From Ornithinimicrobium faecis (GTDB lineage Bacteria; Actinomycetota; Actinomycetes; Actinomycetales; Dermatophilaceae): a DNA stretch of 64,000 nucleotides. This document shows, one piece after another, positions 2,138-34,918 of this stretch. The notes under the pieces are model-generated. The model saw nothing but the letters and a program-made list of their open reading frames with translations, searched no databases and was not told the origin of the DNA. Each line of letters starts with the position of its first letter. Position 1 is the stretch's first letter. The DNA is taken from contig NZ_CP099489.1 of assembly GCF_023923225.1 (NCBI RefSeq), forward strand, positions 3,596,001 through 3,660,000, read 5' to 3'. Made by a program: the position numbers and the translations under genes.

Positions 2138-3727
2138 TCACCGGACCTGCACGTCGACCGTGTGCCACCCACTCGCGCCGTTGGGAGCAGGGAGGGCGTG
2201 CTCCTCGGTCTGCACCTCGCCGGCCCCGTCGGTGGCCCGCACGCTCACGGCATACTCGCCCGGCTCGGCCTGCCAGGTGAGCATCCACTGGCGCCAGGAG
2301 TCGGTCGTCGGCTCCTCCGCAAGGGTCGCCTCCTGCCAGTCGCCGTCCCCGATGCGAACCTCGACGCGCTCGATCCCGCGGTGCTGGGCCCAGGCGACAC
2401 CCGCGATCACGACCTCCCCGGCGCCGACCGGCTCGCCGGGACGCGGGACGTCGATCCGCGAGGCGGTCTTGATCGGGCCCAGGGCCGACCAGCCGCGCGG
2501 GGTCCAATAGCCCTCGTCCTGGTCAAACCTGGTCACCTTGAGCTCGGTCACCCACTTGGTCGCCGAGACATAGCCATACAGGCCCGGCACGACCAGTCGC
2601 ACCGGGAATCCGTGCTCGGGCAGCAGTGCCTCCCCGTTCTGAGCGACGGCCAGCAGTGCGTTGCGGTCGTCAGTCAGCGCCTCGATCGGGGTGCCGGCCG
2701 TGAAGCCGTCGGTGCTGGTCGACAGCACCATGTCGGCGCCCTCCTGCACCCCGGCGCGCGCCAGCACCTCGCGGACCGGCAGCCCGGTCCACACGGCGTT
2801 GCCGGCCAGGTTGCCGCCCACATAGTTGGACACGCAGGTCAGCGTCACCAGCGCCTCGACCAGGTCGGCGTCCAGCAGGTCCTGGAAGGTCAGCTCAATC
2901 TCCTGGTCGACCATCCCGGTGACCCGCAGCCGCCAGGCGTCCGGGTCGACCTGGGGCACGGTGATGGCGGTGTCGATCCGATAGAAATTGTTGTTGGGAG
3001 TGATGTATGCCGTCTGGCCGGTCACTCCCTGCGTGGCACCTGCCGGGACGGCGACCGGGTGCGCAACGTGCAGCATGCCCAGGCTCGCGCGGGCTGCCTC
3101 GACCACCTCGCCGGCGCGACTGAGGGCGCGGCCCGCTGCGATGCCAAGGGCACCGACCACCGTGAGTCCGCCGCCCCAGGCCAGCACCGTGCGCCGACTC
3201 GCCATGCCCGCTCCCATCGGCACCGCCTCAGGCTGGCTGGGCGCCAGACGGCGCCAGAGCCGGTCGAGGGTCCACAACCCGACGAGCGTCCCGATGATCG
3301 TTGGGATGGTGTCGGGCCAGGAGAAGTTGGGCCGGTCCATCACGGCGAGCACCCCGACAACCCCGACTGCCGCGAACACCCCCAGCCCCCAAAAAATATA
3401 GAGGTCTCGCACGCCCTCCCCGTCTTTTGATAGAGGTCTCGCACGCCCCGCGCCGAGGACCCCGATCAGCGCACAGAGCCCAGTCAGCACGATGCCCATG
3501 CCGACCAGCAGCGCGAGCTTGTCGTTGGTCCCGAAGGTCTGGATCGCGAAGTCTTTGAGCCAGGCTGGCGTCCGGTCGACGAACGCGCCGGCGACGGCCA
3601 CGAGGGGGGAGGCCGTCCCCGATCCGATGCCGCCGCGCATCAGCACGGCCGCGCCAACCTCCGCCACCGCCAGAGTGATCGCTCCCGCGGCGACGCCGGA
3701 CAGTGCTGCCAACCAGCGACGACTCAC
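2138..3727 (-). CDS. Membrane-anchored molybdopterin oxidoreductase (sulfite oxidase family)
   Basis: 529 residues. Residues 1-200 hold about five membrane segments. Residues 235-430 form the sulfite-oxidase/YedY-type molybdopterin domain; TLTCVSN supplies Cys298, the expected Mo ligand. The C-terminal 110 residues form the Ig-like Mo-co dimerisation domain. It probably transfers electrons at the outer membrane face; the substrate (sulfite, methionine sulfoxide or other) is unknown. GTG 3727 gives a normal membrane start; longer in-frame starts run into the divergent RHH gene. Residues 94-113, in the loop between the third and fourth membrane segments, are encoded by two tandem copies of a dispersed 31-32 bp repeat. 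Confidence 0.85.
   Translation of the reverse strand: MSRRWLAALSGVAAGAITLAVAEVGAAVLMRGGIGSGTASPLVAVAGAFVDRTPAWLKDFAIQTFGTNDKLALLVGMGIVLTGLCALIGVLGAGRARPLSKDGEGVRDLYIFWGLGVFAAVGVVGVLAVMDRPNFSWPDTIPTIIGTLVGLWTLDRLWRRLAPSQPEAVPMGAGMASRRTVLAWGGGLTVVGALGIAAGRALSRAGEVVEAARASLGMLHVAHPVAVPAGATQGVTGQTAYITPNNNFYRIDTAITVPQVDPDAWRLRVTGMVDQEIELTFQDLLDADLVEALVTLTCVSNYVGGNLAGNAVWTGLPVREVLARAGVQEGADMVLSTSTDGFTAGTPIEALTDDRNALLAVAQNGEALLPEHGFPVRLVVPGLYGYVSATKWVTELKVTRFDQDEGYWTPRGWSALGPIKTASRIDVPRPGEPVGAGEVVIAGVAWAQHRGIERVEVRIGDGDWQEATLAEEPTTDSWRQWMLTWQAEPGEYAVSVRATDGAGEVQTEEHALPAPNGASGWHTVDVQVR
3391..3447. repeat. Two tandem 31-32 bp dispersed repeats inside a coding region
   Basis: Two units with core ATAGAGGTCTCGCACGCC, 32 bp apart, on the strand opposite the molybdoenzyme gene. 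The same core occurs four times at 45623-45747. Here the insert stays in frame and adds about 20 residues to a membrane-protein loop. Confidence 0.8.
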
Positions 3728-3786
3728 TTGGTGATCGTGGCACCCACACCTGGGAATCCGGTCACGACAACCTGGGCATTCCATCG

Positions 3787-3811
3787 CTACGTAGTACGTT
3801 GCAAGACGTAG
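3787..3811. promoter_or_regulatory. Possible RHH autoregulatory site
   Basis: CTACGT (3787-3792) and ACGTAG (3806-3811) form an inverted repeat around a further TACGT copy, 25-49 bp before the RHH gene start. RHH proteins usually bind such short repeated half sites; function here is inferred. Confidence 0.3.
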
Positions 3812-3835
3812 ACATCGCCAAGCTGAAGGCCTGAC

Positions 3836-4147
3836 ATGAAGGAACTTGAGCGAACCCTGGCCGAGGACGGCCTTGCCGCCGAGGACAACAAGGACGCGCC
3901 AATTCGCCCGGACACCCGGGTCAGTCGCGGGCATGGCAGATCACGGACACTGCAAGTGCGGCTCAACGACGAGGAGTATGTGGCGCTCGAGGAGCTTGCC
4001 ACGAGGCGCGGTCTGCCCATCTCAACTCTTGTGCGCAGCCTCCTGCTCCCGCTGCTGACAGCCGAACAGGATGAGCCCGGAGAGGTCATCGAACGGATGC
4101 GGCGAGAGCTCGACCTTCTGGCACGACATCTGGGCAGCTCGCGGTAG
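3836..4147 (+). CDS. Small ribbon-helix-helix (CopG/Arc-like) protein
   Basis: 103 residues. A charged, flexible N-terminus of about 40 residues precedes LQVRLNDEEYVALEELATRR, a typical RHH beta strand and first helix, followed by GLPISTLVRSLLL as the second helix and an acidic helical tail. Such proteins are DNA-binding repressors, often antitoxins, but no toxin gene adjoins it. GAAGG lies 6 nt before ATG 3836. It is divergent from the molybdoenzyme gene. Partner and targets are unknown. Confidence 0.7.
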   Translation: MKELERTLAEDGLAAEDNKDAPIRPDTRVSRGHGRSRTLQVRLNDEEYVALEELATRRGLPISTLVRSLLLPLLTAEQDEPGEVIERMRRELDLLARHLGSSR

Positions 4148-4185
4148 TCGCCGACATGAAGGGCATGAAGGCTGATCAACACAAC

Positions 4186-4215
4186 ACCGCCCGCCCTGCG
4201 GAGAGGGCGAGCGGT
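4186..4215. terminator. GC-rich hairpin between convergent genes
   Basis: ACCGCCCGCCCT and AGGGCGAGCGGT form a 12 bp stem with one mismatch and a 6 nt loop, between the ends of the RHH gene and the secreted-protein gene. No T run follows; likely a bidirectional terminator of the actinobacterial kind. Confidence 0.6.
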
Positions 4216-4234
4216 GCTGGGGGCTGCGATTGGC

Positions 4235-4630
4235 TCAGCAGGAGTTGGCGTCGAACTCGCCGACGAAGAAGACCAACATGCCCCAGGGCGCCATGGGCTG
4301 CTGGGTCTGCCCGGGCTCATAGCAGAGGTCCAGCGTGAACCACTTCCTGGTGATCGACTCATAGGCCGAGGCGTGGACACGAACCGGGTTGTCCCGGCAG
4401 TTGTTGTAGCTCTGGTAGCCGAAGTGGAAACCGCACGGCAACGCCTGTGGCGCCACCTCGGTCGGCAACTCCATCGGACTGGTTGCGGTGCTGCCGGTCG
4501 GCAGCTGACTCGTTTGCGTGTGCGCTGGCGCCGACTCCAGGCCGGGCGTCGCCGAGGCCGAGGAGGCCCCGATCGCCAGGCCCACGCCAGCGACTGCGGC
4601 GGCCGTCTTCATCTTCCAGGAATTCTTCAT
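4235..4630 (-). CDS. Secreted Cys-containing protein, possibly DUF6355-like
   Basis: 131 residues. A Sec signal peptide (MKNSWK, hydrophobic stretch, SASA cleavage region) leads to a mature domain with four cysteines: PCGFHFG, SYNNCRDN, LDLCYEPG and the C-terminal NSC. This spacing resembles small secreted DUF6355 proteins of actinobacteria, but I am not certain of that match. ATG 4630 has GGGAG 8 nt upstream; a longer in-frame start at 4699 would bury the signal peptide. A TAACGT box lies at 4668-4673. Function unknown. Confidence 0.65.
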   Translation of the reverse strand: MKNSWKMKTAAAVAGVGLAIGASSASATPGLESAPAHTQTSQLPTGSTATSPMELPTEVAPQALPCGFHFGYQSYNNCRDNPVRVHASAYESITRKWFTLDLCYEPGQTQQPMAPWGMLVFFVGEFDANSC

Positions 4631-4795
4631 GCTGAATGCTCCCTTCGAGTGAATGCGTGCGCTCTCCACGTTAGGAACCACAACGTCAACGCACATCACG
4701 AAAAGGTAAAAACCTGGGAAGTCTGGTCACCGTGAGGTCATGCAGATGCAGCCCGGACCTGCGCGTGATAGGCATGCCCGCGCGCGCCCGCCACC

Positions 4796-5374
4796 TCAGG
4801 AACGCGCGTGGGAGTGATACTCCTCATTCGGCACGAGACCGATCGCGGTCGCCACCCGGTTGGTCATGTTGAACATGCCAATCACCTGCACCAGCTCCAT
4901 GATCTGGTGGTCGTCCATGCCGACCTCACGCAGTGGCTCCAGGTCCTCCCGGGTGACCTCGTCCGGCGCCCGGGTGAGGAGCTCGGCATACTCCGCGATC
5001 GCACGCTCCCGGGCCGGCAGGTCAGCCTGCCGCCAGTTGACCGCGACGAGGTCGGCGGTCACCGTGTCACCAGTGAACTGCCGCAGCGCGGCGCCGTGCG
5101 AGATCGTGCAATAGGTGCACCGGTTGATGCCGCTGACCACGACCGCGACGAGCTCGCGCTCGGCGTTGGTCAGGTGCCCCTCCTTGTTGACCAACAGGTT
5201 GAAATAGTTCCACCACGCCAGGAACTGGTCGCCGTTGACGGCCTGCCCCTGGAAGACGTTGGGCACGAAGCCGAACGCTTCCTGCGACTTGTCCCACAGG
5301 CGGGTCACGCCCTCGGGCACGTCGTCGCGGCCGGGGACGGAGAGGTAGGAGATCTCGGGAGTCTGGTCAGCCAT
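4796..5374 (-). CDS. Peroxidase-related enzyme, AhpD / carboxymuconolactone decarboxylase-like
   Basis: 192 residues of the all-helical AhpD-like fold. CTYCTISHG carries the CxxC plus downstream His of alkylhydroperoxidase-type active sites. The length and N-terminus (ISYLSVPG) fit the peroxidase-related branch. Probably reduces hydroperoxides using thiols; the reductant is not identifiable. Transcribed alone, with a -10 box 6 nt before the ATG. No link to the adjacent secreted-protein or isomerase genes is evident. Confidence 0.85.
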
Positions 5375-5380
5375 GTCGTG

Positions 5381-5386
5381 AGGCTA
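5381..5386 (-). promoter_or_regulatory. -10 box (TAGCCT), leaderless
   Basis: Read on the minus strand, TAGCCT ends 6 nt before ATG 5374 of the peroxidase gene and no Shine-Dalgarno sequence is present. Confidence 0.5.
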
Positions 5387-5410
5387 CCGGCACACATCCT
5401 CGCGCAGCGC

Positions 5411-6118
5411 TCAGGCCCAGGCAGGCGGGGGCGGCAGGTCAACCTCGGCGTCAAGACCGTCGCTGTTTCCCCGCGCGAGCCACAGCAGCATCGCCCCAGG
5501 ACTGCCGATGACCGCGGGCCCACCGCCGCCCAGGGCCATCTGATCCAGTCCGCGCGGTTGCAGCGTCAGGGCCGGGGCGGACCCGCTCGCCTCCCAGGTG
5601 CGCACGCCGCGGCGCAGGGTGCGGGCGACCCAGTCGGGGTCCGCGTCCTCGAATGTATAGCCGGCCAGCAGGTCGACATGATGGAAGACCACCTCGAGGG
5701 TGCGCATCGCCACAACCTGAGCGCCGGTGACGTCGTTGCCCGTCCGGCTGCGGACGACAGCTGCCCCCGCGGGACCCCGGAGCCCCTCCGCCTGGGCACG
5801 GAACCGTTGGGCCGTCGTGCGCACGTCGGCAACGATGTGCTCCAGAGAGCGCTGGGATCCGACCTCAATGTCGTCGCGTCGGGCCTGCTCTGAGGCGTAG
5901 GCCTCGCGCTCGCGGCCATCCACGGCCCAGTTCACCAGGTTGCCCAGCGCCTCGGCGTTGCGCGCCAGGTGCGTGAGCACGTGCCGCCGGCTCCAACCTG
6001 CGCACAGGGTGTCGTGGTCTGCGTCCTGCTCCGTCAACCGGTCGAGGGTGGCGCCCAGACGAGCGTCCTCGGCGTCGAGCAGGGCGAGATTGTCCGCCGC
6101 GCGGTGCGCAGTGCTCAT
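5411..6118 (-). CDS. Maleylpyruvate isomerase family (mycothiol-dependent/DinB-like) protein
   Basis: 235 residues. The N-terminal DinB-like four-helix bundle has GWSRRHVLTHLARNAEAL, whose His belongs to the family metal site, and a second conserved region VVFHHVDLLAGY. The C-terminal region is a short alpha/beta domain ending in PPPPAWA. Family members isomerise maleylpyruvate in the gentisate pathway using mycothiol, or act as mycothiol-dependent enzymes of unknown substrate. ATG 6118 overlaps the stop of the upstream GntR gene by 4 bp, so the two are coexpressed. No gentisate genes are in the window, so the substrate is open. Confidence 0.8.
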   Translation of the reverse strand: MSTAHRAADNLALLDAEDARLGATLDRLTEQDADHDTLCAGWSRRHVLTHLARNAEALGNLVNWAVDGREREAYASEQARRDDIEVGSQRSLEHIVADVRTTAQRFRAQAEGLRGPAGAAVVRSRTGNDVTGAQVVAMRTLEVVFHHVDLLAGYTFEDADPDWVARTLRRGVRTWEASGSAPALTLQPRGLDQMALGGGGPAVIGSPGAMLLWLARGNSDGLDAEVDLPPPPAWA

Positions 6119-6939
6119 CGGCCGACCGAGCCGGGCTCGTTGCGACCCGCTGGTTCCTTGCGACCCGCTGGTTCTTCACGACCGCCTGCGCCGTCCTCGG
6201 GACGCAGGAAGGCCACGTCCGACACGGTCGCGATGTGGCGGGTCATCGCGAGTGAGGCCGCGAGCGGGTCCTGCTCCCGAATCGCCGTGGCGACGGCGCG
6301 GTGCTGCTCCAGGGACTCCTCCGGGCGGCCGGGTTGGGACAGAGACTCGATCCGCGTCTCCAGGATGAGCTCGCTGATCTCAGCCATGAGCCGAGCCAGG
6401 ACCCGGGAGTGTCCGGCCGTGGTCACTGCCGCGTGAAAGGCACGGTCACCCTCGAGGGGGCGCTCCCCGGCTGCGACCTGACGCTCCATGAGCTCCAGCG
6501 CCTCGTCGATGGCGCGCAGGTCCTCCGGGGTGGCCCGCCGGGCAGCGAGCGCCGCCAGCTTGGCCTCAAGCGCGGACCGGGCGTCGATGATGTCGGGCAG
6601 GCTGTTCTGGTGCTCGCGCACGGCGCTGAGCAGCGCATCGTCCTCGGTCGAGCGGTCCAGGATGACGGCCCCTCCCCCATGGCGGACCTGGACGACGCCC
6701 ACGACCTCGAGGGCGACCAGCGCCTGGGCGAGCGAGGCCCGGCTGACCTGGAGTGCCTGGGCAAGTTCGCGCTCGGGCGGGAGCTTGTCACCGGCCCCGA
6801 GCTTTTCCTCGCGAATGTGCGCCAGGAGCTGCTCCACGATCTGCTCATACAGGCGTGGGCGGGCCACTCGGGAGGGCACGGCACGCTTGACCGCCGGGCT
6901 CGCCACGACTGGGTCGGAGTCCATTCTTTCTCGCGGCAT
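6115..6939 (-). CDS. GntR family regulator, FadR subfamily
   Basis: 274 residues from ATG 6939. The N-terminal winged helix contains DKLPPERELAQALQVSRASL, and the C-terminal half is an all-helical FCD effector domain with the metal-site region SRVLARLMAEISELI. The tail holds EPAGRK/EPAGRN repeats from an 18 bp tandem repeat. TAACAT stands exactly 7 nt before ATG 6939 and overlaps ATG 6948, so 6939 is preferred, as a leaderless start. It is divergent from the CoA-transferase/TRAP operon, which it most likely controls in response to a carboxylate or its CoA ester. Confidence 0.85.
   Translation of the reverse strand: MPRERMDSDPVVASPAVKRAVPSRVARPRLYEQIVEQLLAHIREEKLGAGDKLPPERELAQALQVSRASLAQALVALEVVGVVQVRHGGGAVILDRSTEDDALLSAVREHQNSLPDIIDARSALEAKLAALAARRATPEDLRAIDEALELMERQVAAGERPLEGDRAFHAAVTTAGHSRVLARLMAEISELILETRIESLSQPGRPEESLEQHRAVATAIREQDPLAASLAMTRHIATVSDVAFLRPEDGAGGREEPAGRKEPAGRNEPGSVGR
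6140..6175. repeat. 18 bp tandem repeat x2 at gntR 3' end
   Basis: TTGCGACCCGCTGGTTC is repeated head to tail (6140-6157, 6158-6175) in the last codons of gntR, adding two six-residue units without shifting the frame. Confidence 0.8.
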
Positions 6940-6946
6940 GCCCTTC

Positions 6947-6987
6947 ATGTTATTGACAAATGGCTCAGTTGCCTATTGGCTAGTCCA
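6947..6987. promoter_or_regulatory. Divergent promoter and putative GntR operator
   Basis: The minus strand has TAACAT (6952-6947) for gntR. The plus strand has TTGACA (6953-6958) upstream of the CoA-transferase operon, with a weak -10. TGG-N5-CCA (6977-6987) resembles FadR-subfamily half-site spacing. Assignment to the GntR protein is inferred. Confidence 0.45.
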
Positions 6988-7009
6988 CCGAACCACAAAG
7001 GAGTGGCGG

Positions 7010-8197
7010 ATGACACAATCTGTGCAGAACGGCGCCCTGTCCGACCTCATCGTGCTGGACCTGACGCGAGCCCTCGCCGGTCCTCACGCGGCGATGATGC
7101 TCGCGGACCTCGGTGCCCGTGTCATCAAGGTGGAGGCGCCCGGGCACGGTGATGAGACCCGCACCTGGGGGCCACCGTTCATCGACGGCAGCGACCACGA
7201 GGCCGTGTCCAGTTATTTCCTGTCCTGCAACCGCGGCAAGGAGTCGATCGCCCTCGACCTGAAGTCCGACGAGGGCAAGGCACAGCTGACCGAGCTGATC
7301 CGGCGCAGCGACGTGCTGCTGGAGAATTTCCGCCCAGGCGTCCTGGACCGCCTCGGCTTCCCCAGCGCGACGTTGTTCGAGCTCAATCCCCGCCTGGTGA
7401 TGCTCTCCATCACCGGCTTCGGCCACGACGGCCCGGAGGGCAACCGCCCCGGCTATGACCAGATCGCCCAGGGCGAGGCCGGGCTGATGTCGGTCACCGG
7501 CTCCGGCCCGGACGACCCGCAGCGCGTGGGGGTCCCGATCGGCGACCTCACCTCGGGCATGTATGGCGCCTATGGCATCCTCGCCGCGCTGCTGGAGCGC
7601 GAGCGCACCGGCCGCGGTCAGGTCGTGCGCACCTCGTTGCTCGCCTCCCTGGTCGGCCTCCATGCCTTCCAGGGGACCCGGTGGACCGTGGCGCACGAGG
7701 TGCCCCGGGCCCAGGGCAACCACCACCCCTCGATCAGCCCCTACGGCCTGTTCCACTGCCGCGACGGCGCGGTCCAGATCGCCTGTGGCAACGAGACCCA
7801 CTGGCAGCGCCTGTGCCAGGAGTTCGGCCTGGACCCCGCGACGCCGGGCCTGGCCACGAACCCCGAGCGGGTCACGAATCGCAACGAGGTGATCACCCTG
7901 CTGGAGTCGACCTTCGCTGACATCGACCAGGTCGACCTGCTCACCCGTCTCGACACGATCGGCATCCCCGCGGGTCGGGTGCGTGACTTCCAGGAGGTCT
8001 ATGAGTGGGATCAGACCCGCTCCCAGGGGCTGCTCATCGAGGTGGAGCACCCCACCCTGGGCCCGGTCGAGCTGCCCGGTCCGCCGCTGCGCTTCTTTGA
8101 CGTCGACGGCGCCGAGACGACCGTGACCGGGCAGGGCAGCCCACCGCTGCTCGATGAGCATGGTGATCAGATCCGCCACTGGCTGGCGCAGGGTTAA
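7010..8197 (+). CDS. CaiB/BaiF family III CoA-transferase
   Basis: 395 residues. Typical class III features: LTRALAGPHAAMMLADLGA at the N-terminus, NRGKESIALDLK, LLENFRPG, the PGYDQIAQGEAGLM segment, and Asp179 in PIGDLTSGMYG, the expected catalytic aspartate. Family members move CoA between short acids, for example oxalate, dicarboxylates or carnitine. AAAGGAG lies 8 nt before ATG 7010. First gene of an operon with a carboxyltransferase and a TRAP transporter; it probably activates the imported acid. The exact substrate cannot be read from the sequence. Confidence 0.9.
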   Translation: MTQSVQNGALSDLIVLDLTRALAGPHAAMMLADLGARVIKVEAPGHGDETRTWGPPFIDGSDHEAVSSYFLSCNRGKESIALDLKSDEGKAQLTELIRRSDVLLENFRPGVLDRLGFPSATLFELNPRLVMLSITGFGHDGPEGNRPGYDQIAQGEAGLMSVTGSGPDDPQRVGVPIGDLTSGMYGAYGILAALLERERTGRGQVVRTSLLASLVGLHAFQGTRWTVAHEVPRAQGNHHPSISPYGLFHCRDGAVQIACGNETHWQRLCQEFGLDPATPGLATNPERVTNRNEVITLLESTFADIDQVDLLTRLDTIGIPAGRVRDFQEVYEWDQTRSQGLLIEVEHPTLGPVELPGPPLRFFDVDGAETTVTGQGSPPLLDEHGDQIRHWLAQG

Positions 8198-26961: not shown

Positions 26962-27009
26962 CAACAGACGAGCAGGCCAACAGACCACCAGCTAACAAAC
27001 CACGGGCGG
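26962..27009. repeat. 16 bp tandem repeat x3 after the TfoX gene
   Basis: CCAACAGACGAGCAGG (26962-26977), CCAACAGACCACCAGC (26978-26993) and a degenerate third unit TAACAAACCACGG from 26994 that runs into the terminator. Confidence 0.65.
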
Positions 27010-27037
27010 GGCGACCGGGTGGCCGCCCCGCCCGTGG
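27000..27037. terminator. Strong bidirectional terminator
   Basis: CCACGGGCGGGGCG with its exact complement: 14 bp stem, 10 nt loop, between the convergent TfoX and DUF916 genes. Confidence 0.85.
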
Positions 27038-27049
27038 TGACTGCGGGAG

Positions 27050-28222
27050 TTAGGGTTTCGGCGGGTCCGCAGGCGGTTGGTCCGCGCCCGATCCCGCACC
27101 GGCACCCGAGGTTGCCGAGGTCTCTGAGGTGCTCGAGGCGCTCGAGGCTTTGTGCTCCTCCAGCTCCTTGCGCATCTCGGCACGCGCCTTGGCCACGGCC
27201 TCATCGACCTGCTTGGCGTTCTTCTTCTTGGCGTGCTTGCGCCGCCAGCGGGACCACACCACGAGCAGCACCAGGACCGCGAGGATGATCAGCTCGACCC
27301 AGGGCAGCGCCCACGCGTCGGCGGACTCCTGCGTCTGGACGACGGGCAGCACGTTGGCAGAGGTCTGGGGCGCCTCGGGCGTCACCAGGACCTCCTCCGT
27401 GACGCGGAACAGCGGCAGCACCCCGTCAACCTGCTCGGAGACGGTGAGCGACTCGCCGGGCAGGATCTCCCCCACCGGATCGAGCGTGACCGTGTGGTCT
27501 CCGAGCCCGAAGACCCCGTGACCGCTGATGCTCTGCTCACCGGAGAGGCGGACGTTGCCCGCGTTGTGGACCTCATAGGTCACCGTGGCCGCCCCGGTGG
27601 TGAACGGGATCCACGAGCGCTCGTAATTGACGCTGAGGTTGGTCACCTCCAGGGTCGGGTTGATGTCCCCGGCGACCCGCAGATAGATCCGCGAGCCGAC
27701 CCGGTTGTCGACCAGCACCCGCTGCCCCTCGGCATCGGTGGTCTCCGAGGTAACCGACGCGACGATGCCGCCGGCGTGATCGCCGGGGGTGGCGTCCTGC
27801 GGGACCGTCAGGGAGAACGGCACGTTGGCGCTCTCCCCCGCCCCGAGGGTCACCTGCTCGTCGAGACCGACCCACGCGCCGACACCCACGGGCTCGGCGT
27901 CCGCCGGTTGCAGGGTGAAGCCGCCGTCGGGGCTGTTGATCGCGTCGTGTGAATAGAGGTGGAAGGTGACCTCCTCGTCGCTGAAGTTGTTCAGCTGAGC
28001 AGCATCCTCCACGGTCTGTCCCGGCTCCACCTCCAGGTCCCAGTCTGGGCGGCCGTCGGCGCCGTCCTCACCGGCCGGCTGCACCGACCAGGTGAGGGAC
28101 GACTCCGGCTCGCCGGTCTGCTGGGCCTGGTCCTCGGCCGCCGCCGCGGGGGTGATCGCCAGTGCGAGACCAGCGATCACCGCCGCGGCTGCTGATAGTG
28201 CTCCTCGTGCCATGCCCAGCAT
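27050..28222 (-). CDS. WxL-interacting (DUF916) cell-surface membrane protein
   Basis: 390 residues. Signal peptide to about residue 29, then two beta domains: the peptidoglycan-binding-like DUF916 half (SSLTWSVQPAG, DAAQLNNFSDEEVTFHLYS, NVPFSLTVPQDATPGDHAGG) and a second Ig-like half (VTYEVHNAGNVRLSG). One membrane helix (about 307-325) is followed by WSRWRRKHAKKK and a charged helical cytoplasmic tail. In Firmicutes such proteins bind WxL-domain surface proteins. It is the last gene of the three-gene operon, 4 bp after the protease, so it is the likely anchor for the two proteins encoded upstream. Confidence 0.8.
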   Translation of the reverse strand: MLGMARGALSAAAAVIAGLALAITPAAAAEDQAQQTGEPESSLTWSVQPAGEDGADGRPDWDLEVEPGQTVEDAAQLNNFSDEEVTFHLYSHDAINSPDGGFTLQPADAEPVGVGAWVGLDEQVTLGAGESANVPFSLTVPQDATPGDHAGGIVASVTSETTDAEGQRVLVDNRVGSRIYLRVAGDINPTLEVTNLSVNYERSWIPFTTGAATVTYEVHNAGNVRLSGEQSISGHGVFGLGDHTVTLDPVGEILPGESLTVSEQVDGVLPLFRVTEEVLVTPEAPQTSANVLPVVQTQESADAWALPWVELIILAVLVLLVVWSRWRRKHAKKKNAKQVDEAVAKARAEMRKELEEHKASSASSTSETSATSGAGAGSGADQPPADPPKP

Positions 28223-28226
28223 CAGA

Positions 28227-31200
28227 TCACAGGGCCGTGATCGTCAGGATGGCGGTGTAGACACCAGGCGTGGTGGCCATCGGGACCTGCAGGTCCAGCC
28301 CCGCACCGAGCGTGGCAGAGCCGCGACCAGAGCCCGGCTCGGCCGAGCCCATAGGGCGCGGCACCGACAGGCCCTCACCGGACGGGAAGCCCGGGGCGAC
28401 CACGTCGCCCGGGGTCACGGCCTGACCGTCCGAGGAGGACTCCACGGAGGGGGCCCAGCCGAGGAACCCGCCGGCGAACAGACCCTCGTCGGACCCGGCG
28501 AAGTCGGACACCTGCGCCGAGACGTTCCAGCCCGGGTCGGCGGTCCGCGAGTCGGTCACCATGACCGGTCGCAGCTCACCCGAGGTGGCCAGACGGTCAC
28601 CCTGGGAGGCCATCTCCGGCAGCTCCACCGTGCGGTCCTGCGGGTCAACCGAGATCAGCAAGGATCCGTCCTCACCGCCCCCGTCCTGCGGGACGGTGGC
28701 CACGATGTCCTGGCTGGCACCGTCGACCGGCGGCTCCGAGCCGTCACCACTGACCGTCAGCGAGATCGGCAGCGACGTGGTCGGCTGGTCCGGGTCGTTG
28801 GACGCGAGCATCGCGATCGTCCGCTCGATGTCGCCAGCGCTCAGGCCAGCCGAGTCGATGGTCACGGTCACGTCCTGGGTCTGACCGGCCGGGACGGTGC
28901 CCGACATCGGCTCCATCGTCAGCCACTCCGGCAACTGGGTGTCCGGCGCGTCGGTGGTGCCCGTGACGTTCAGGACCAGGTGCGTGTCCGGGAAGCCGAT
29001 GACCGACATCGGAGCCGGCTCCGGCATCCCACAGTCCACCGAGCGCAGATAGGACGGTGCGGACTCACCCTCGGCGTTGGAGCCGGCGAAGAAGCCGCTC
29101 GTCTCGCTCGTCGAGGGAGCATCCAGCTCGACCACGAGGGTCGACCCGGCCGGTGCGGTGCCGGTCACGGGGACCGACACCATCTGCAGCGCCTGCGGCT
29201 GCAGCGTCACCTCGGAGCTGCCGATCTGCGTCAGGTTGTCATAGGTCAGCGTCTCGCCGTCGAGGGTGTAGAGACGCACCGTGACGTTGGCCGGGGCACC
29301 ATTGACCGCCTCGACCCCGAAGGAGACATCGGTGACCGCAAACTCGTCGGCGATCGCAAAGTCGGTCAGCGTGAAGGTCCGCAGGAACCCGTTGTCGCCG
29401 GTGAGTCCGTCCTCCGCGGAGCAGGCGACCGTGTTGTTGGCCAGGACAGCCTGCGACTCCGAGTGGGTCATCGTGACCGACCCCTCGTCCGCCGCGGGGC
29501 GCTCGACCTGCGTCTGTATGCCGCTCGCCACAGTCCCGGAGTTGCGTGCCGGTTCGAGCAGCTCACCCTGGCCAGGGAGCGTGCGGTCCTTCGGCAGGGC
29601 CGAGGCAGTGACCGGTGTGCCCGTCACTGGACGCAGGGTGATCGCCTGCTCGCCGGTCTCCTCCACGACGTTCCACTCCAGGCCCTGACCACCGGTGTTG
29701 CCGATGGTCACGGTGTGCTCCGTGACCGTGTCCGGCTCCTGCTCGGCAGCAACCTCACCGGGGTCGACCTCGAGCTGGGCAGCCGTGGACTGCACGAGCA
29801 TCGGGAACGTCGCGTCGGCGACCGGCACGCCGCTGGCGTAGGTGCCGTCGGTCGACCAAGTGACCGAGCCAAAGGCCCACTCACCGATCGGCAGACCGCC
29901 AGCCTGCGCCATGATCTCCACGGCTGCGGACTCCCCCGGCGCCAGGGTGATCGTTGCCGGCTCGACCTGCACAGACACTCCATCGGCGCTCTCGCCCGCA
30001 GCGGTGTAGGTCACGCTCGTGTCCGCGACGTTGGTCACCGTGCGCGTCCAGGTGCACGCGGATCCGCACTCCTGGTCGACCAGGGCCGGGACGTTGAGCG
30101 TCTGCGGGTCCCCGTCAAACCCGGGAGCCGGGTTGGCGGCCTTGAAGTTCTCATAGGTCTCATCGAGAACCAGGCCGACCCGACCAGCGGCTCCCAGGTC
30201 CAACAGCCCCGATCCCTGATCAAACGCCGTCGTGGGGTCGGCGCCCGCGCTCAGGACATCAGGATTGGCCGAGGAGGCCAGGGCAGACCGGATCTGCATG
30301 GGGGTCCAGTCCGGGTGCAGCGCCGTCATCAGGGCTCCGGCTCCGGCCACGTGGGGTGAGGCCATCGAGGTGCCCTGCTGGACCATGTAGGAGTCAGCAT
30401 CCCCGGCGTTGGCAGCCAGGATGTTGACACCGGGTGCGGTGATCGTCGGCGAGATCAGATCGTGCTGCGACGGGCCCCGCGAGGAGAAGCCGGCGATCGA
30501 GTTGGCCCACTCCTCATCAGTGACCAGAGACGTTGCCGCGTTGAGCCGGACCTGCGTGTCCGCGCCGGTCACGTGCTCACGCAGCGCGAGCCCGTCCGAG
30601 CGGCCGATCATGACGGCCGGCACCGAGGTGCCAGCCAGGCCGCCCATGGTGGTGGGCGGGCCGACCGAGTCACTGAAGACCACGACGGCGTCTGCCCCGG
30701 CCGAGGCAGCGTTGCTCACCTTGGCCGAGAAGTCACAGGCACCACGCTCGATGAGCGCGACGGAGCCCTCAAAGACACCGCCCGGGAAGGCAGCGCACCC
30801 GTTGCCGTTGCCGGAGGCCACCGCCTCCGCGTCACGGATCGGTGCCTCGAGGTCGTTGGTCAGGCCCGGGCCGTCACCGGAGGGGACCGCGGCCAGACCG
30901 CTGAGGCCCTCGGGGGCACCGGCAGTCGTGACGTCGAGCGTCTGCGCGAAGACCCGGCTGGTGGTCGAGGCCGCAACGGCGGTGATCCACGGCCCGCTGT
31001 GAGCCGTCGTGCTCTCACCCGGTCCCTCGTTGCCGGCCGCTGCGGCCACAAAGATGCCCGCGTTGGCGGCCTCGAGGAAGCCCACGCTGACCGGGTCGGT
31101 CCAGGGGCTGTCCGAGCCGGCGATGGAGAAGTTGATGACATCCACACCGTCGGTGACGGCCTGGTCGATGCCGGCCAGGATCGCGGTGATCGGGCAGTTG

Positions 31201-32231
31201 TTCAGGCACACCCGATAGGCCACGATGTTGGCCCGGGGCGCCACCCCGGAGACCTCGCGGGTGAACGAGGTGTCACCGATGGTGAACGTCGCATCGTGGA
31301 CGTTGCCTGCCGCCGTCGACGCGGTGTGACTGCCGTGGCCGTCACTGTCGATGGCGCTGTCCTCGCGGTAGTCGAAGGACCAGGCCCCGACCAGTTTGTC
31401 GTTGCAGATCGCCTCGTCGGGCTGCCTGCTATTCGACGGGTCGCAGACACCCAGGTAGGTCCCGTCACCGAGCGGGTTCTCGTGCTGATAGCCCGTGCCG
31501 TCGGTGGCGGCAAAGGACGGGTGCTCGGGGTTGACGCCCGAGTCCAGGATGCCGACCAGCACACCCTCTCCACGGGTGCCGACCTGGCTGCCCGTCTCGC
31601 CGCCCCAGATCGCGGCCGAGCCGATCGCCTCGTGCGAGACGTCGGTGGTCAGCTCGCGCAGCTCGTCGGGATAGACCGCGGCCACCCCCGGCAGGGCGGA
31701 GAGCTGCACGGCCTCGGAGCGGTCCGCCTCGATGACGACCGCGTTGAGCACCGAGCTGTAGGTGCGCTCGATCGCGACCTCACGACCCAACTCGCCTCCG
31801 GCTGTGTCGGCGAAGGTGGCCTGGCGGGCCTGCAGGTGGTCGGCGTAGGAGCGGGCCGCCGAGGAGGTCACGTCCAGCTTGGGCGCACCCGTGACCTGCG
31901 GGTCGGTGGCGGACAGGTCCGCGATGCCGCCGTCGTAGGTCGCCAGGGACGGCTCGTCCAACTGCACGATCCACCGGCCGGTCTCGGACGAGCCGAGGGT
32001 GCTGCTGGCTGCGAGTGTGTCCTGGTCCCCGGACGTGTCACCGCTCGCCGCCGTGCTGCCAGCGGCGATCTCCTGACCGGCCAGGTCGGCCTGGCCGAAC
32101 TGTGCGGCGGCGATGCCCGGCACCACGGCCACGGCTGTGACCGCGACGGCCGCGGCGAGGGCCCGACCGCCCCAGGATCTGGTGGTGCTGCGTCTCATCC
32201 GCCGTGTTGCGTCAGTGGTTGACCGGCGCAT
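28227..32231 (-). CDS. Large secreted subtilisin-like (S8) protease with WxL-like C-terminus
   Basis: 1334 residues. Signal peptide, I9-type propeptide (GRWIVQLDEP), then the S8 catalytic domain: Asp in VGILDSGVNPEHP, His in DGHGSHTASTAAG, Ser in GTSMASPHVAGAGAL. A PA domain (GACDFSAKVSNAASAGADAV) is inserted before the Ser. Fn3/Ig-like domains follow. The last ~165 residues are a domain about 70% identical to that of the neighbouring protein, with PGWNVSAQV, GGFLGWAPSVES and the final TAILTITAL. ATG 32231 shares one base with the previous stop. An exported protease probably held at the wall by the DUF916 protein. Confidence 0.88.
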   Translation of the reverse strand: MRRSTTDATRRMRRSTTRSWGGRALAAAVAVTAVAVVPGIAAAQFGQADLAGQEIAAGSTAASGDTSGDQDTLAASSTLGSSETGRWIVQLDEPSLATYDGGIADLSATDPQVTGAPKLDVTSSAARSYADHLQARQATFADTAGGELGREVAIERTYSSVLNAVVIEADRSEAVQLSALPGVAAVYPDELRELTTDVSHEAIGSAAIWGGETGSQVGTRGEGVLVGILDSGVNPEHPSFAATDGTGYQHENPLGDGTYLGVCDPSNSRQPDEAICNDKLVGAWSFDYREDSAIDSDGHGSHTASTAAGNVHDATFTIGDTSFTREVSGVAPRANIVAYRVCLNNCPITAILAGIDQAVTDGVDVINFSIAGSDSPWTDPVSVGFLEAANAGIFVAAAAGNEGPGESTTAHSGPWITAVAASTTSRVFAQTLDVTTAGAPEGLSGLAAVPSGDGPGLTNDLEAPIRDAEAVASGNGNGCAAFPGGVFEGSVALIERGACDFSAKVSNAASAGADAVVVFSDSVGPPTTMGGLAGTSVPAVMIGRSDGLALREHVTGADTQVRLNAATSLVTDEEWANSIAGFSSRGPSQHDLISPTITAPGVNILAANAGDADSYMVQQGTSMASPHVAGAGALMTALHPDWTPMQIRSALASSANPDVLSAGADPTTAFDQGSGLLDLGAAGRVGLVLDETYENFKAANPAPGFDGDPQTLNVPALVDQECGSACTWTRTVTNVADTSVTYTAAGESADGVSVQVEPATITLAPGESAAVEIMAQAGGLPIGEWAFGSVTWSTDGTYASGVPVADATFPMLVQSTAAQLEVDPGEVAAEQEPDTVTEHTVTIGNTGGQGLEWNVVEETGEQAITLRPVTGTPVTASALPKDRTLPGQGELLEPARNSGTVASGIQTQVERPAADEGSVTMTHSESQAVLANNTVACSAEDGLTGDNGFLRTFTLTDFAIADEFAVTDVSFGVEAVNGAPANVTVRLYTLDGETLTYDNLTQIGSSEVTLQPQALQMVSVPVTGTAPAGSTLVVELDAPSTSETSGFFAGSNAEGESAPSYLRSVDCGMPEPAPMSVIGFPDTHLVLNVTGTTDAPDTQLPEWLTMEPMSGTVPAGQTQDVTVTIDSAGLSAGDIERTIAMLASNDPDQPTTSLPISLTVSGDGSEPPVDGASQDIVATVPQDGGGEDGSLLISVDPQDRTVELPEMASQGDRLATSGELRPVMVTDSRTADPGWNVSAQVSDFAGSDEGLFAGGFLGWAPSVESSSDGQAVTPGDVVAPGFPSGEGLSVPRPMGSAEPGSGRGSATLGAGLDLQVPMATTPGVYTAILTITAL

Positions 32232-34012
32232 CAGATGGCGGTGATGGTCAGGACGGCGGTGTAGGTGCCGGGAGCGGTGTCAACGGGGATCTGCAGCTCC
32301 AGGCCGGCGCCGAGCACGGCCGAGCCGGTGCCAGCACCCTCGTCGGCCGAGCCCAGCTGGCGCGGCACGGACAGGCCCTCACCCGACGGGAAGCCGGGGT
32401 CCACGGCGTCGCCCGGGTTCACGGTCTGGCCGTCCGTGGAGGACTCCACGGACGGGGACCAGCCGAGGAAGCCACCCGCGAAGGAGTCATCGCCCTCGCT
32501 GGCGCTGAACTCAGACACCTGAGCGGAGACATCCCAGCCCGGGTTGGTCGCCCGGGAGTCGGTCACGGTGACGGGTCGCAGCTCACCTGAGGTGGCCAGG
32601 CGGTCGCCGAGGGAGTCCATCTCAGGCAGCGCCACCGTGCGGTCGTCGGGGTCGACGGAGATCACCAGTGACCCCTCACCGGTGTCCTCGGGGATCGTCG
32701 CGACGATCTCCTCGCTCGCGTCGTCGGCCGGCGGCTCCGAGCCGTCGGTGTCGCCATAGGCCACAAAGACGCCGGTGCCCCACTCAGCCTGGTTGTCGCC
32801 CTCCGGGTGCACGCCGGCGGCGAAGGCCACATCGCCGTTGTCGTTGATCGTCGGGCCACCGCCGAAGACGGGGCTGGCGTTGTGCTGGCCGAGCTGGGCG
32901 GTGCCCAGGTCGGTGGTGACCGCGTCACCCTGGGTCGCGACCGCGACCAGGTCCTCGCCGTCGCCAACATAGATGACTGCGCCGTCCGGGCCGATGGCGC
33001 GGAAGACGACCTCACCAGCGTTGTTGATGTCGGGGCGGAAATAGCGCACCGACTGGACGGGGCCGTCGGCGGACTCGGCAGCGATCTCGGTCACGGTCTC
33101 ACCGTCGGAGCGCACGACGACCTTGGCGCCGTCCGAGACGCGCTCGGCGACAGCCGCGATGACGCCCTCGTCGTTCACGGCGATGCCGTTGTCAAACTCC
33201 TTGTAGGGCGACTCGGGGTCAACTGCCTGGTTGGCCAGCAGGACCTCGGAGGAACCGTCCGGGTTGAAGACGCGCAGCTCCTGCTCGGTCACCTTGTCGT
33301 CAGAGGTCGAGACCTTGGCCGCGATCTGTCCGGCGTCGTTGTAGTGCGCGGTGTAGAAGAAGGTGAAGGGGCTGTTCGGGTCGACGCCCTTGTCGCTGGC
33401 ATAGAAGACACCCATGCCGTCGCGGTAGGCGGCCATCGAGCGGCCGGCCGAGAACGAGGCCTGGAACCCGATGTTGCCGTCCTCGTCCACCGCGGCCGAG
33501 GAGTAGGAGTTGGGCAGCACCGGAGAGGTCCCGACCTGTTCCGCGGTCTGCGTGTCGGCGGAGTACAGATACAGCTTGTTGTCCACGCCACCGCCGCCCA
33601 GCGTGAAGGCGATGTCGCCCTTGTCGTTCAGGATCGCCTCACCGGGGATGGTCCCGCCCTCGTTGCCGGTGTAGACGATCTCGCCCTCGCCGCCACTGCC
33701 AAACCAGACGCCCGGGCTGCCGATGGTCGGGTCAAGACCCGCGACGTATTGCACCCGGAAGGACACCTCGCCGTTCTCGTTGATCTGGGGGGTGATGGAG
33801 TTGAAGGACGACCCCGGCGGCAGGTTGTGCCCCGCGTCGTTGGCCAGCAGGTTGGTCCGGGCCTGGAGCTCGACCGTGTCGTAGGGGTCGCCGTCGGCGT
33901 GGGCCGCCATCGGCGTCACGCCGGCAGCGATCAGCAGCGCGGCCGTCGTGGGGGCGGCGGCCAGCAGCGTCATGAACGAACGGCGCGCTGCGGGACGGGG
34001 AGAGGTGTGCAT
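32231..34012 (-). CDS. Secreted NxxGxxAF-repeat protein with WxL-like C-terminus
   Basis: 593 residues. Signal peptide (RRSFMTLLAAAPTTAALLIAAG, shown here in part; Ala-rich cleavage at AAHA). At least seven repeats of the type INENGEVSFR, LNDKGDIAF, VDEDGNIGF, YNDAGQIAA, VNDEGVIAA, INNAGEVVF and INDNGDVAF suggest a beta-propeller. The C-terminal ~165 residues are the WxL-like domain shared with the protease (NPGWDVSAQV, GGFLGWSPSVES, final TAVLTITAI). GGAAGG-like site (GGAAGG) 8-9 nt before ATG 34012. First gene of the surface operon; the ligand is unknown. Confidence 0.82.
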   Translation of the reverse strand: MHTSPRPAARRSFMTLLAAAPTTAALLIAAGVTPMAAHADGDPYDTVELQARTNLLANDAGHNLPPGSSFNSITPQINENGEVSFRVQYVAGLDPTIGSPGVWFGSGGEGEIVYTGNEGGTIPGEAILNDKGDIAFTLGGGGVDNKLYLYSADTQTAEQVGTSPVLPNSYSSAAVDEDGNIGFQASFSAGRSMAAYRDGMGVFYASDKGVDPNSPFTFFYTAHYNDAGQIAAKVSTSDDKVTEQELRVFNPDGSSEVLLANQAVDPESPYKEFDNGIAVNDEGVIAAVAERVSDGAKVVVRSDGETVTEIAAESADGPVQSVRYFRPDINNAGEVVFRAIGPDGAVIYVGDGEDLVAVATQGDAVTTDLGTAQLGQHNASPVFGGGPTINDNGDVAFAAGVHPEGDNQAEWGTGVFVAYGDTDGSEPPADDASEEIVATIPEDTGEGSLVISVDPDDRTVALPEMDSLGDRLATSGELRPVTVTDSRATNPGWDVSAQVSEFSASEGDDSFAGGFLGWSPSVESSTDGQTVNPGDAVDPGFPSGEGLSVPRQLGSADEGAGTGSAVLGAGLELQIPVDTAPGTYTAVLTITAI

Positions 34013-34048: not shown

Positions 34049-34077
34049 GTCTCACCCGAAGTTGTTACCACTGTCAA
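34049..34077 (-). promoter_or_regulatory. Promoter of surface-protein operon with GTTAC repeats
   Basis: On the minus strand TTGACA (34077-34072), 17 bp spacer, TGAGAC (34054-34049). On the plus strand GTTACCACT (34064-34072 region) and GTTACACT (34080-34087) are near direct repeats around the -35 box, good candidates for binding by the divergent TrmB-like regulator. Confidence 0.5.
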
Positions 34078-34099
34078 TAGTTACACTAAGGTTTTACCC

Positions 34100-34918
34100 A
34101 TGGAAGACTCCTCCGTTGCCGAACTCGTCCAGCTCGGCCTCACCCGCTATGAGGCCCAGAGCTACCTCGCCCTGATCGGTCGCGACGATGGCACACCCGC
34201 AGAGATCGCCCGGATCGGCAACATCCCGCGACCCCGCGCCTACGACGTGCTGGCCTCTCTTGCCGAGCGTGGCTTCGTGGCGCCTGTCTCGGGCTCCCCC
34301 GGCCTGCGTTATCGGGCCAAGCCCCCGGACCAGGTGTTCGACAGCCTGCTCGCGGTGCGTCGCCACGATCTCGAGACGCTCGCCTCCCGATCTCGTGAGC
34401 TCGCCGTTGAGTTGCAGGCCCGTTTCGTGGACGGTCAGGGCCGAGCCGAGCCGCTGGACTATGTCGAGGTCCTGCGCGACCCGGCCCACACCGTGCAGCG
34501 CATCGAGCGGTTGTGGCAGGGGGCGCAGGAGGAGATCCTCGCGATGGTGCGCCCGCCCTATCTGGCCGCCCCACCCTCAGACGAGGCAACGCTCCCGTCC
34601 AGGGCCGGCATCAGAGCCATCTATGCGCGTCCCCTGCTCGATGACCCAGATCTGGTGCGCCTGCTCGAGGCCTACGAGCGCCTCGGCGAGGACCTGCGCA
34701 TCTGTGACGACGTGCCGCTGAAGATGACGGTCGTCGACCGGCAGTCAGTCGCCTTCAACATGCCCGACCCGGTCGAGAACGGCTCCTCGGTCACCACGAT
34801 CGTCGTGCACCACCGCGACCTCGCCGCCACCCTCAGCATCGCCTTCGAGACCCTGTGGGGGCAGGCAAGCACACTCGCGGACAGCGTCCCCGAGCCCGCT
34901 GCCGACACCGACGCTTGA
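34100..34918 (+). CDS. TrmB family transcriptional regulator
   Basis: 272 residues. The N-terminal TrmB winged helix (ELVQLGLTRYEAQSYLALIG, IPRPRAYDVLASLAERGFV) is followed by a coiled helix and a C-terminal effector domain (AQEEILAMVRPPYL to HHRDLAATLSIAFETLWGQ). In characterised members that domain binds sugars; the ligand here is unknown. Divergent from the surface operon, which it probably controls. A 36 bp piece of its coding sequence is duplicated just after its stop. Confidence 0.88.
   Translation: MEDSSVAELVQLGLTRYEAQSYLALIGRDDGTPAEIARIGNIPRPRAYDVLASLAERGFVAPVSGSPGLRYRAKPPDQVFDSLLAVRRHDLETLASRSRELAVELQARFVDGQGRAEPLDYVEVLRDPAHTVQRIERLWQGAQEEILAMVRPPYLAAPPSDEATLPSRAGIRAIYARPLLDDPDLVRLLEAYERLGEDLRICDDVPLKMTVVDRQSVAFNMPDPVENGSSVTTIVVHHRDLAATLSIAFETLWGQASTLADSVPEPAADTDA

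Follow-up and report, generated by a model that had tools for sequence, protein, structure and literature searches.

A probable WxL/WxLIP-type surface-display operon with a subtilase and a repeat protein in Ornithinimicrobium faecis

A three-gene cluster in the actinobacterium Ornithinimicrobium faecis probably constitutes a surface-display unit of the WxL/WxLIP type, in which two secreted proteins would be held by a membrane-anchored partner without a sortase. The cluster lies in a 64,000-nucleotide stretch of contig NZ_CP099489.1 (positions 3,596,001 to 3,660,000; the window, to which coordinates refer unless another locus is named) and encodes an NxxGxxAF repeat protein (gene C), a subtilase (gene B), and a DUF916-type WxLIP homologue (gene A), with a C-terminal domain (CTD) that is shared by B and C. 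Both the CTD and A are, as judged by their sequences, almost certainly homologous to the parts of the WxL/WxLIP system. The genes and domains that carry this proposal are as follows.

32231-34012, minus strand: gene C (593 aa), NxxGxxAF "choice-of-anchor" repeat protein with a C-terminal WxL-like domain
32234-32713, minus strand: CTD of C (residues 434-593), PF13731 match of 26.6-26.9 bits as an isolated domain
28227-32231, minus strand: gene B (1334 aa), subtilase with a C-terminal WxL-like domain
28230-28715, minus strand: CTD of B (residues 1173-1334), 72% identical to the CTD of C, CTD profile match
27050-28222, minus strand: gene A (390 aa), WxLIP homologue (PF06030/DUF916)
27761-28042, minus strand: PF06030 match in A (residues 61-154)
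27254-27316, minus strand: transmembrane helix of A (residues 303-323), from a hydropathy scan

Over their C-terminal approximately 170 residues, B and C are identical at 124 of 173 positions (72%, E 8e-73), and their likeness is therefore not due to chance. A preliminary description of this DNA had reported a shared domain of about 165 residues with about 70% identity, PGW-N/D-V and FLGW motifs, and LTITA-I/L endings, and all of these features are present in the two CTDs. The isolated CTD of C lies above the cut-off of PF13731 (25 bits), whereas full-length C (23.1 bits) and full-length B (15.7 bits) lie below it. In a Pfam scan of 57 diverse CTDs, 21 matched PF13731 at E ≤ 0.01 and none matched another family; among 15 slightly longer CTD pieces, weak matches to non-WxL families were found for CDC48_2 in one (E 0.0044) and, at E ≤ 0.1, for NPCBM_assoc in two and DUF4402 in one. 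The alignments comprised 57 of 76 CTDs (A3) and 33 of 35 in-frame CTD-WxLIP pairs (A7, from which L190 and L197 were excluded). The first WxL motif reads W-D-V and W-N-V in the window and is present as W-x-[V/L/I] in 71 of the 76 CTD proteins, and the Asp at W-8 and Arg at W-6 that are described for the WxL domain in PMC9772566 are kept at these exact positions in 47 of them. At the distal motif, YXXX(L/I/V)TWXL, the Trp is replaced by I in the window, and the position is occupied by L, I, V, or F in every scorable sequence of two sets (75/75 and 78/78). Only 4 of the 76 proteins have a Trp elsewhere within the last 25 residues, and a further conserved Trp is found within GW.P in 72. The CTD occupies the extreme C-terminus of both window proteins, and in 74 of the 76 at most 15 residues follow it. 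An AlphaFold2 model of the CTD of C (predicted local distance difference test score, 92.9; predicted template-modelling score (pTM), 0.83) is all-beta except for one helical turn. Sequence searches of the PDB with CTD profiles yielded no convincing relative (best E 0.38 and 0.35), a near-classical small protein gave no match, and the relative P0004 reached a best E of 0.93; these sequence searches did not reach the WxL chain of 9i25, which is also missing from the 50 matches listed. The PF13731 matches, together with the missing distal Trp, argue that the CTD is by sequence a WxL homologue and yet a distinct branch, in line with the actinobacterial version suggested by the preliminary description. 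The CTD system would act like WxL/WxLIP but falls outside WxL by the two-motif definition.

The partner protein A matches PF06030 (DUF916, now WxLIP_PGBD) with 47.5 bits against a cut-off of 27.3, and its order is a signal sequence (by inspection), the DUF916/PGBD domain, a second immunoglobulin (Ig)-like domain, the transmembrane helix, and a basic tail, with no Lys or Arg in the 20 residues before the helix and eight in the 20 after it. This layout recurs in a whole-length alignment of 50 of 65 WxLIPs (A4; long, overlapping, or broken frames were excluded), in which PF06030 was found in 47, a C-terminal transmembrane helix in 49, and more Lys and Arg after the helix than before it (20 residues each; means 6.08 vs 0.46) in 49, while PF11797 (DUF3324/HBD) was found in none at E ≤ 0.01. 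The single sequence that departs from the helix and charge pattern is L031. CscA was supposed to sit in the bacterium's own membrane (PMC1534035), and insertion of WxLIP into a host membrane was proposed instead in PMC10599100. The basic tail that follows the helix argues for the former, so that WxLIP is probably anchored in the membrane of the bacterium itself with its tail inside, and host-membrane insertion is implausible for environmental bacteria. As a side observation, the WxLIP frames at L100 2975-7063 (1362 aa) and L101 5103-7166 (687 aa) extend hundreds of residues past the homology and may be frame artefacts.

The linkage between CTD and WxLIP is near-obligate. Among 78 genomes, the CTD was found in 7 and PF06030 in 8, and all 7 CTD genomes also contained PF06030. 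Across 396 genomes of the order, where at most nine CTD candidates were scored per genome and the counts are thus lower bounds, the CTD was found in at least 80, PF06030 in 71, and both in 68 (Fisher 8e-60, a value inflated by kinship); this co-occurrence had been put forward in the preliminary description as a check. Of the 12 genomes with a CTD but no PF06030 match, ten carry a WxLIP next to it according to the profile built here (split over two frames at L106), and the other two loci are cut by contig ends. Three genomes matched PF06030 but not the CTD profile: in G169, divergent CTD proteins lie alongside (L111), and in G209 and G357 the PF06030 match is weak and falls in a very long frame, and no CTD was found. 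The L111 locus (3061-8184) has a small-large-WxLIP-small order and CTDs that are nearer to classical WxL (PF13731 of at most 29 bits) and lack GW.P, an arrangement that perhaps represents a third branch. Over the phylum Actinomycetota, the CTD profile was matched in 24 of 316 genomes, several weakly (31-50 bits), and these matches were not used for the linkage. A second set, selected with a narrower CTD alignment and one peptide pattern, consists of 79 loci from the best 80 of 117 relatives and is biased to one motif; by six-frame profile matches, a WxLIP starts within 600 nt downstream in 61 of these loci and lies elsewhere in the locus in three, and eight loci are cut by contig ends. Since these loci were picked by the CTD pattern and not by WxLIP, the linkage is not built in. 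The named loci and the genome set overlap in part (L159 and L030 are one and the same O. cavernae locus) and are not independent.

A model of the CTD and WxLIP of Microbacterium aoyamense (L160) as a single chain reached a pTM of 0.82, compared with an estimated value of about 0.45-0.55 for independently placed parts, and the L160 WxLIP model aligns with EfmWxLIP1 of Enterococcus faecium across both domains. The structure prediction envisaged in the preliminary description is therefore confident, albeit for the pair of a relative rather than that of the window. The CTD thus occurs mostly with DUF916 and has a predicted interaction, the opposite of a domain that is mostly found apart from DUF916 and predicts none. 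Physical docking of the CTD on WxLIP is likely, and docking through the C-terminal CTD strand is plausible, at slightly better than even chances. In the proposed mechanism, the protease B and the repeat protein C would be secreted with the WxL-like domain at their extreme C-termini, and A would be held in the cytoplasmic membrane via its C-terminal helix, its basic tail facing the cytoplasm. Through beta-sheet addition, the DUF916 domain of A may then grip the WxL-like domain, with YxxxLTITA at the C-terminus as the probable docking strand, and the enzyme and the repeat protein could thereby be kept at the cell surface non-covalently and without a sortase.

Several points weigh against this proposal. 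Besides the absence of the second, distal WxL motif from the CTDs, 7 of the 79 named CTD loci have no neighbouring WxLIP, although the three genomes behind them (Compostimonas suwonensis, Microbacteriaceae 3FA27C10, and Dactylosporangium siamense) carry WxLIPs elsewhere, and the WxLIP profile was itself derived from loci like those to which it was applied. Within the genus the operon is rare, with the CTD in 2 of the 31 members sampled among the 78 genomes, the host included. The complex was modelled for the L160 pair as one artificial chain, with docking read from its pTM, and the last CTD strand is longer in that chain (10 residues) than in the model of the window CTD by itself (5 residues), the two sequences being different. 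Another member of the genus (G012) has a WxLIP-like gene (L031, 7414-8508) without a clear transmembrane helix and with no CTD in the genome. This gene adjoins what we take to be an iron-uptake operon of the EfeUOB type. In addition, the WxL-like domain itself could bind peptidoglycan and so anchor B and C, with A being a surface protein that is expressed alongside but does not physically retain them. In Firmicutes, the WxL domain attaches non-covalently to peptidoglycan and, in trans, to cell surfaces (PMC5817068), which, like the seven loci that lack a WxLIP neighbour, would suit such wall binding; against it stand the near-obligate linkage, the confident predicted complex of the relative, a PDB entry whose title gives a WxLIP bound to a long WxL, and the report that two E. 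faecium WxL proteins bind their transmembrane partner in vitro (PMC5817068), and we regard it as unlikely.

The proteins that carry the CTD suggest what such a unit might display. Cargo regions of at least 60 aa before the CTD were aligned for 69 of the 76 CTD proteins (A5) and searched against Pfam at E ≤ 1e-4; in the 25 of 31 families listed, where one protein may count under several, the matches were Esterase in 10, purple acid phosphatase N-domain and Metallophos in 6 each, HtaA in 4, GH18 in 3, alkaline phosphatase, M64, S8, S15, and GH20 in 2 each, and GH53 and GDPD in 1 each. About half of the 69 regions have a recognised enzyme or HtaA domain, and the others are unrecognised or non-catalytic (e.g., ice-binding). 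The two S8 matches are presumably B of the window and its O. cavernae orthologue. The preliminary suggestion of a protease as cargo thus applies to B, which is a subtilase, but a protease is only one kind of cargo, with Peptidase_S8 in 2 of the 69 regions. The homologue set of 81 proteins includes choice-of-anchor M proteins of Micromonospora and Glycomyces. Small CTD proteins also occur: 9 of the 76 have at most 310 aa, and 7 of these, with 201-219 aa and a CTD from residue 35-42, resemble small WxL proteins. The CTD proteins of L037, L039, and L040 lie in neighbourhoods that we assume to serve haem uptake; the Pfam scan found HtaA in the CTD protein of L040 and a Peripla_BP_2 gene in L039, and the CTD protein of L039 itself had no Pfam match at 1e-5.

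These data bear on whether the locus is an ordinary WxL cluster for which the existing annotation suffices. The relatives P0001, P0004, P0016, P0017, and P0062 already carry WxL names or PF13731, the isolated CTD of C passes PF13731, albeit barely, and membrane-anchored surface complexes for carbon-source acquisition were proposed for Firmicutes by Siezen in 2006 (PMC1534035). However, PF13731 was found in 20 of the 396 genomes (above the cut-off in 7); the actinobacterial profile, with its 80 genomes, recovers 16 of these 20, and in G129, G231, and G264 the match is to other parts of the model, without a CTD. With the distal Trp retained in none of the scorable sequences, PF11797 (HBD) matched by none of the 50 aligned WxLIPs at E ≤ 0.01, and a recognised cargo that consists chiefly of enzymes, an ordinary WxL cluster appears improbable. 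In type IX secretion, Ig-like C-terminal domains are cleaved sorting signals; that the CTD is such a signal and A part of a processing or attachment machinery is very improbable indeed, because the only one of the three operon genes that resembles a processing enzyme is the cargo subtilase, A has the two-domain membrane-protein architecture of a WxLIP, and the seven homologues of 201-219 aa hardly exceed a signal sequence plus the CTD, which would be odd for a discarded signal.

C passes the NxxGxxAF model TIGR05002 (52.5 bits, cut-off 50) and has a signal sequence by inspection; NCBI gives its O. cavernae homologue P0019 the name "choice-of-anchor tandem repeat NxxGxxAF-containing protein". 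We take the N-terminus of C (33900-34012, ARRSFM), like those of several homologues (P0016, L030), to resemble a twin-arginine translocation signal, which would suit pre-folded cargo. B likewise has a signal sequence by inspection, followed by the I9 propeptide, Peptidase_S8 (143.6 bits) with a PA insert, fn3_6, and a HYDIN-like Ig domain, and its catalytic motifs DSG (230), HGSH (299), and GTSMA (620) are intact; the operon might play a part in the use of extracellular protein. The combination of a subtilase, an NxxGxxAF repeat protein, and a DUF916 protein had been recognised beforehand with exact coordinates, and the Pfam and TIGR05002 matches agree with it. Genes C and B overlap in TGATG, the gap between B and A is 4 nt, and a hairpin begins 12 nt past the stop codon of A, which together argue that C, B, and A are likely to form a single operon. 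The flanking features are as follows.

27000-27037, minus strand: terminator-like hairpin 3' of A with perfect 14-bp arms, then TTTGTT (by eye)
34061-34085, no strand assigned: element GTTGTTACCACTGTCAATAGTTACA between C and the divergent regulator, promoter/operator candidate
34100-34918, plus strand: divergent TrmB-type regulator gene (PF01978, E 6e-17 for frame 34064-34918)

The 25-bp element contains two GTTAC copies and is identical at 24 of 25 bases (by eye) at the O. cavernae locus L030, which also has a comparable divergent gene. With its start placed at 34100, the TrmB-type gene encodes a plausible candidate regulator of the operon, which may act through the putative element at 34061-34085. 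The best named match to the CTD is from O. cavernae (NZ_QDDJ01000004.1; 81% identity across the CTD). The two CTDs and the one PF06030 match of the host genome all lie inside the C-B-A locus. The GC content of the operon (0.698 vs 0.691 for the window) gives no compositional sign of horizontal transfer, with which the occurrence in 2 of 31 genus members is still compatible.

If the proposal is correct, many secreted actinobacterial enzymes whose annotation lacks a defined anchor would gain a surface place and a partner, and the C-terminal tag could be used to display enzymes on actinobacterial cells. Recent papers describe the WxL system of gut Firmicutes as a platform for host adhesion and virulence (PMC9772566, PMC10599100), and nutrient acquisition is the older proposal (PMC1534035), which an enzyme-carrying branch in environmental actinobacteria would favour. 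No account of an actinobacterial WxL/WxLIP system was found in searches of openly licensed papers. The Firmicutes system is well described, E. faecium WxL proteins have been reported to bind their membrane partner (PMC5817068), the PDB contains a WxLIP-WxL complex, and DUF916 and metallophosphatase genes are mentioned near the Ang-2 domain in PMC12537917.

Among known systems, the Csc/WxL clusters of Lactobacillales and Bacillales, with cscA (DUF916), cscB (small WxL), cscC (large WxL), and cscD (LPxTG), resemble the operon in that a DUF916 protein with a signal peptide and a C-terminal transmembrane helix is encoded beside secreted proteins with WxL-family ends. The commonest Firmicutes arrangement, one WxLIP and two WxL proteins (98 of 179 clusters; PMC10599100), is that of the window if WxL-like is counted as WxL. 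In contrast to the cluster with a small and a large WxL protein in PMC9772566, both CTD proteins of the window are large, with no small one in the genome; unlike in Csc clusters, none of the three genes A, B, and C ends in LPxTG, and the recognised cargo of the actinobacterial family is chiefly catalytic. According to their titles, PDB entries 9i1y and 9i25 contain EfmWxLIP1 alone and bound to a long WxL; by titles and alignments, EfmWxLIP1 and the actinobacterial WxLIP share 12% identity, and the second domain of the latter is missed by the Pfam HBD model. The NCBI "choice-of-anchor" families (NxxGxxAF and choice-of-anchor M) include C and relatives of its CTD; these names leave the anchor undefined, whereas the CTD here would be a WxL-like anchor tied to a WxLIP. 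The pilins and PapD-like chaperones of chaperone-usher systems are also among the closest known systems, and it is tentatively conceivable, at somewhat less than even chances, that Actinomycetota possess a general sortase-independent enzyme display in which a membrane-bound, PapD-like WxLIP captures a pilin-like CTD by beta-strand donation. Phosphatases, esterases, proteases, and haem-binding proteins would in that case act while attached to the cell, and WxL/WxLIP would correspond, in monoderms, to donor-strand complementation.
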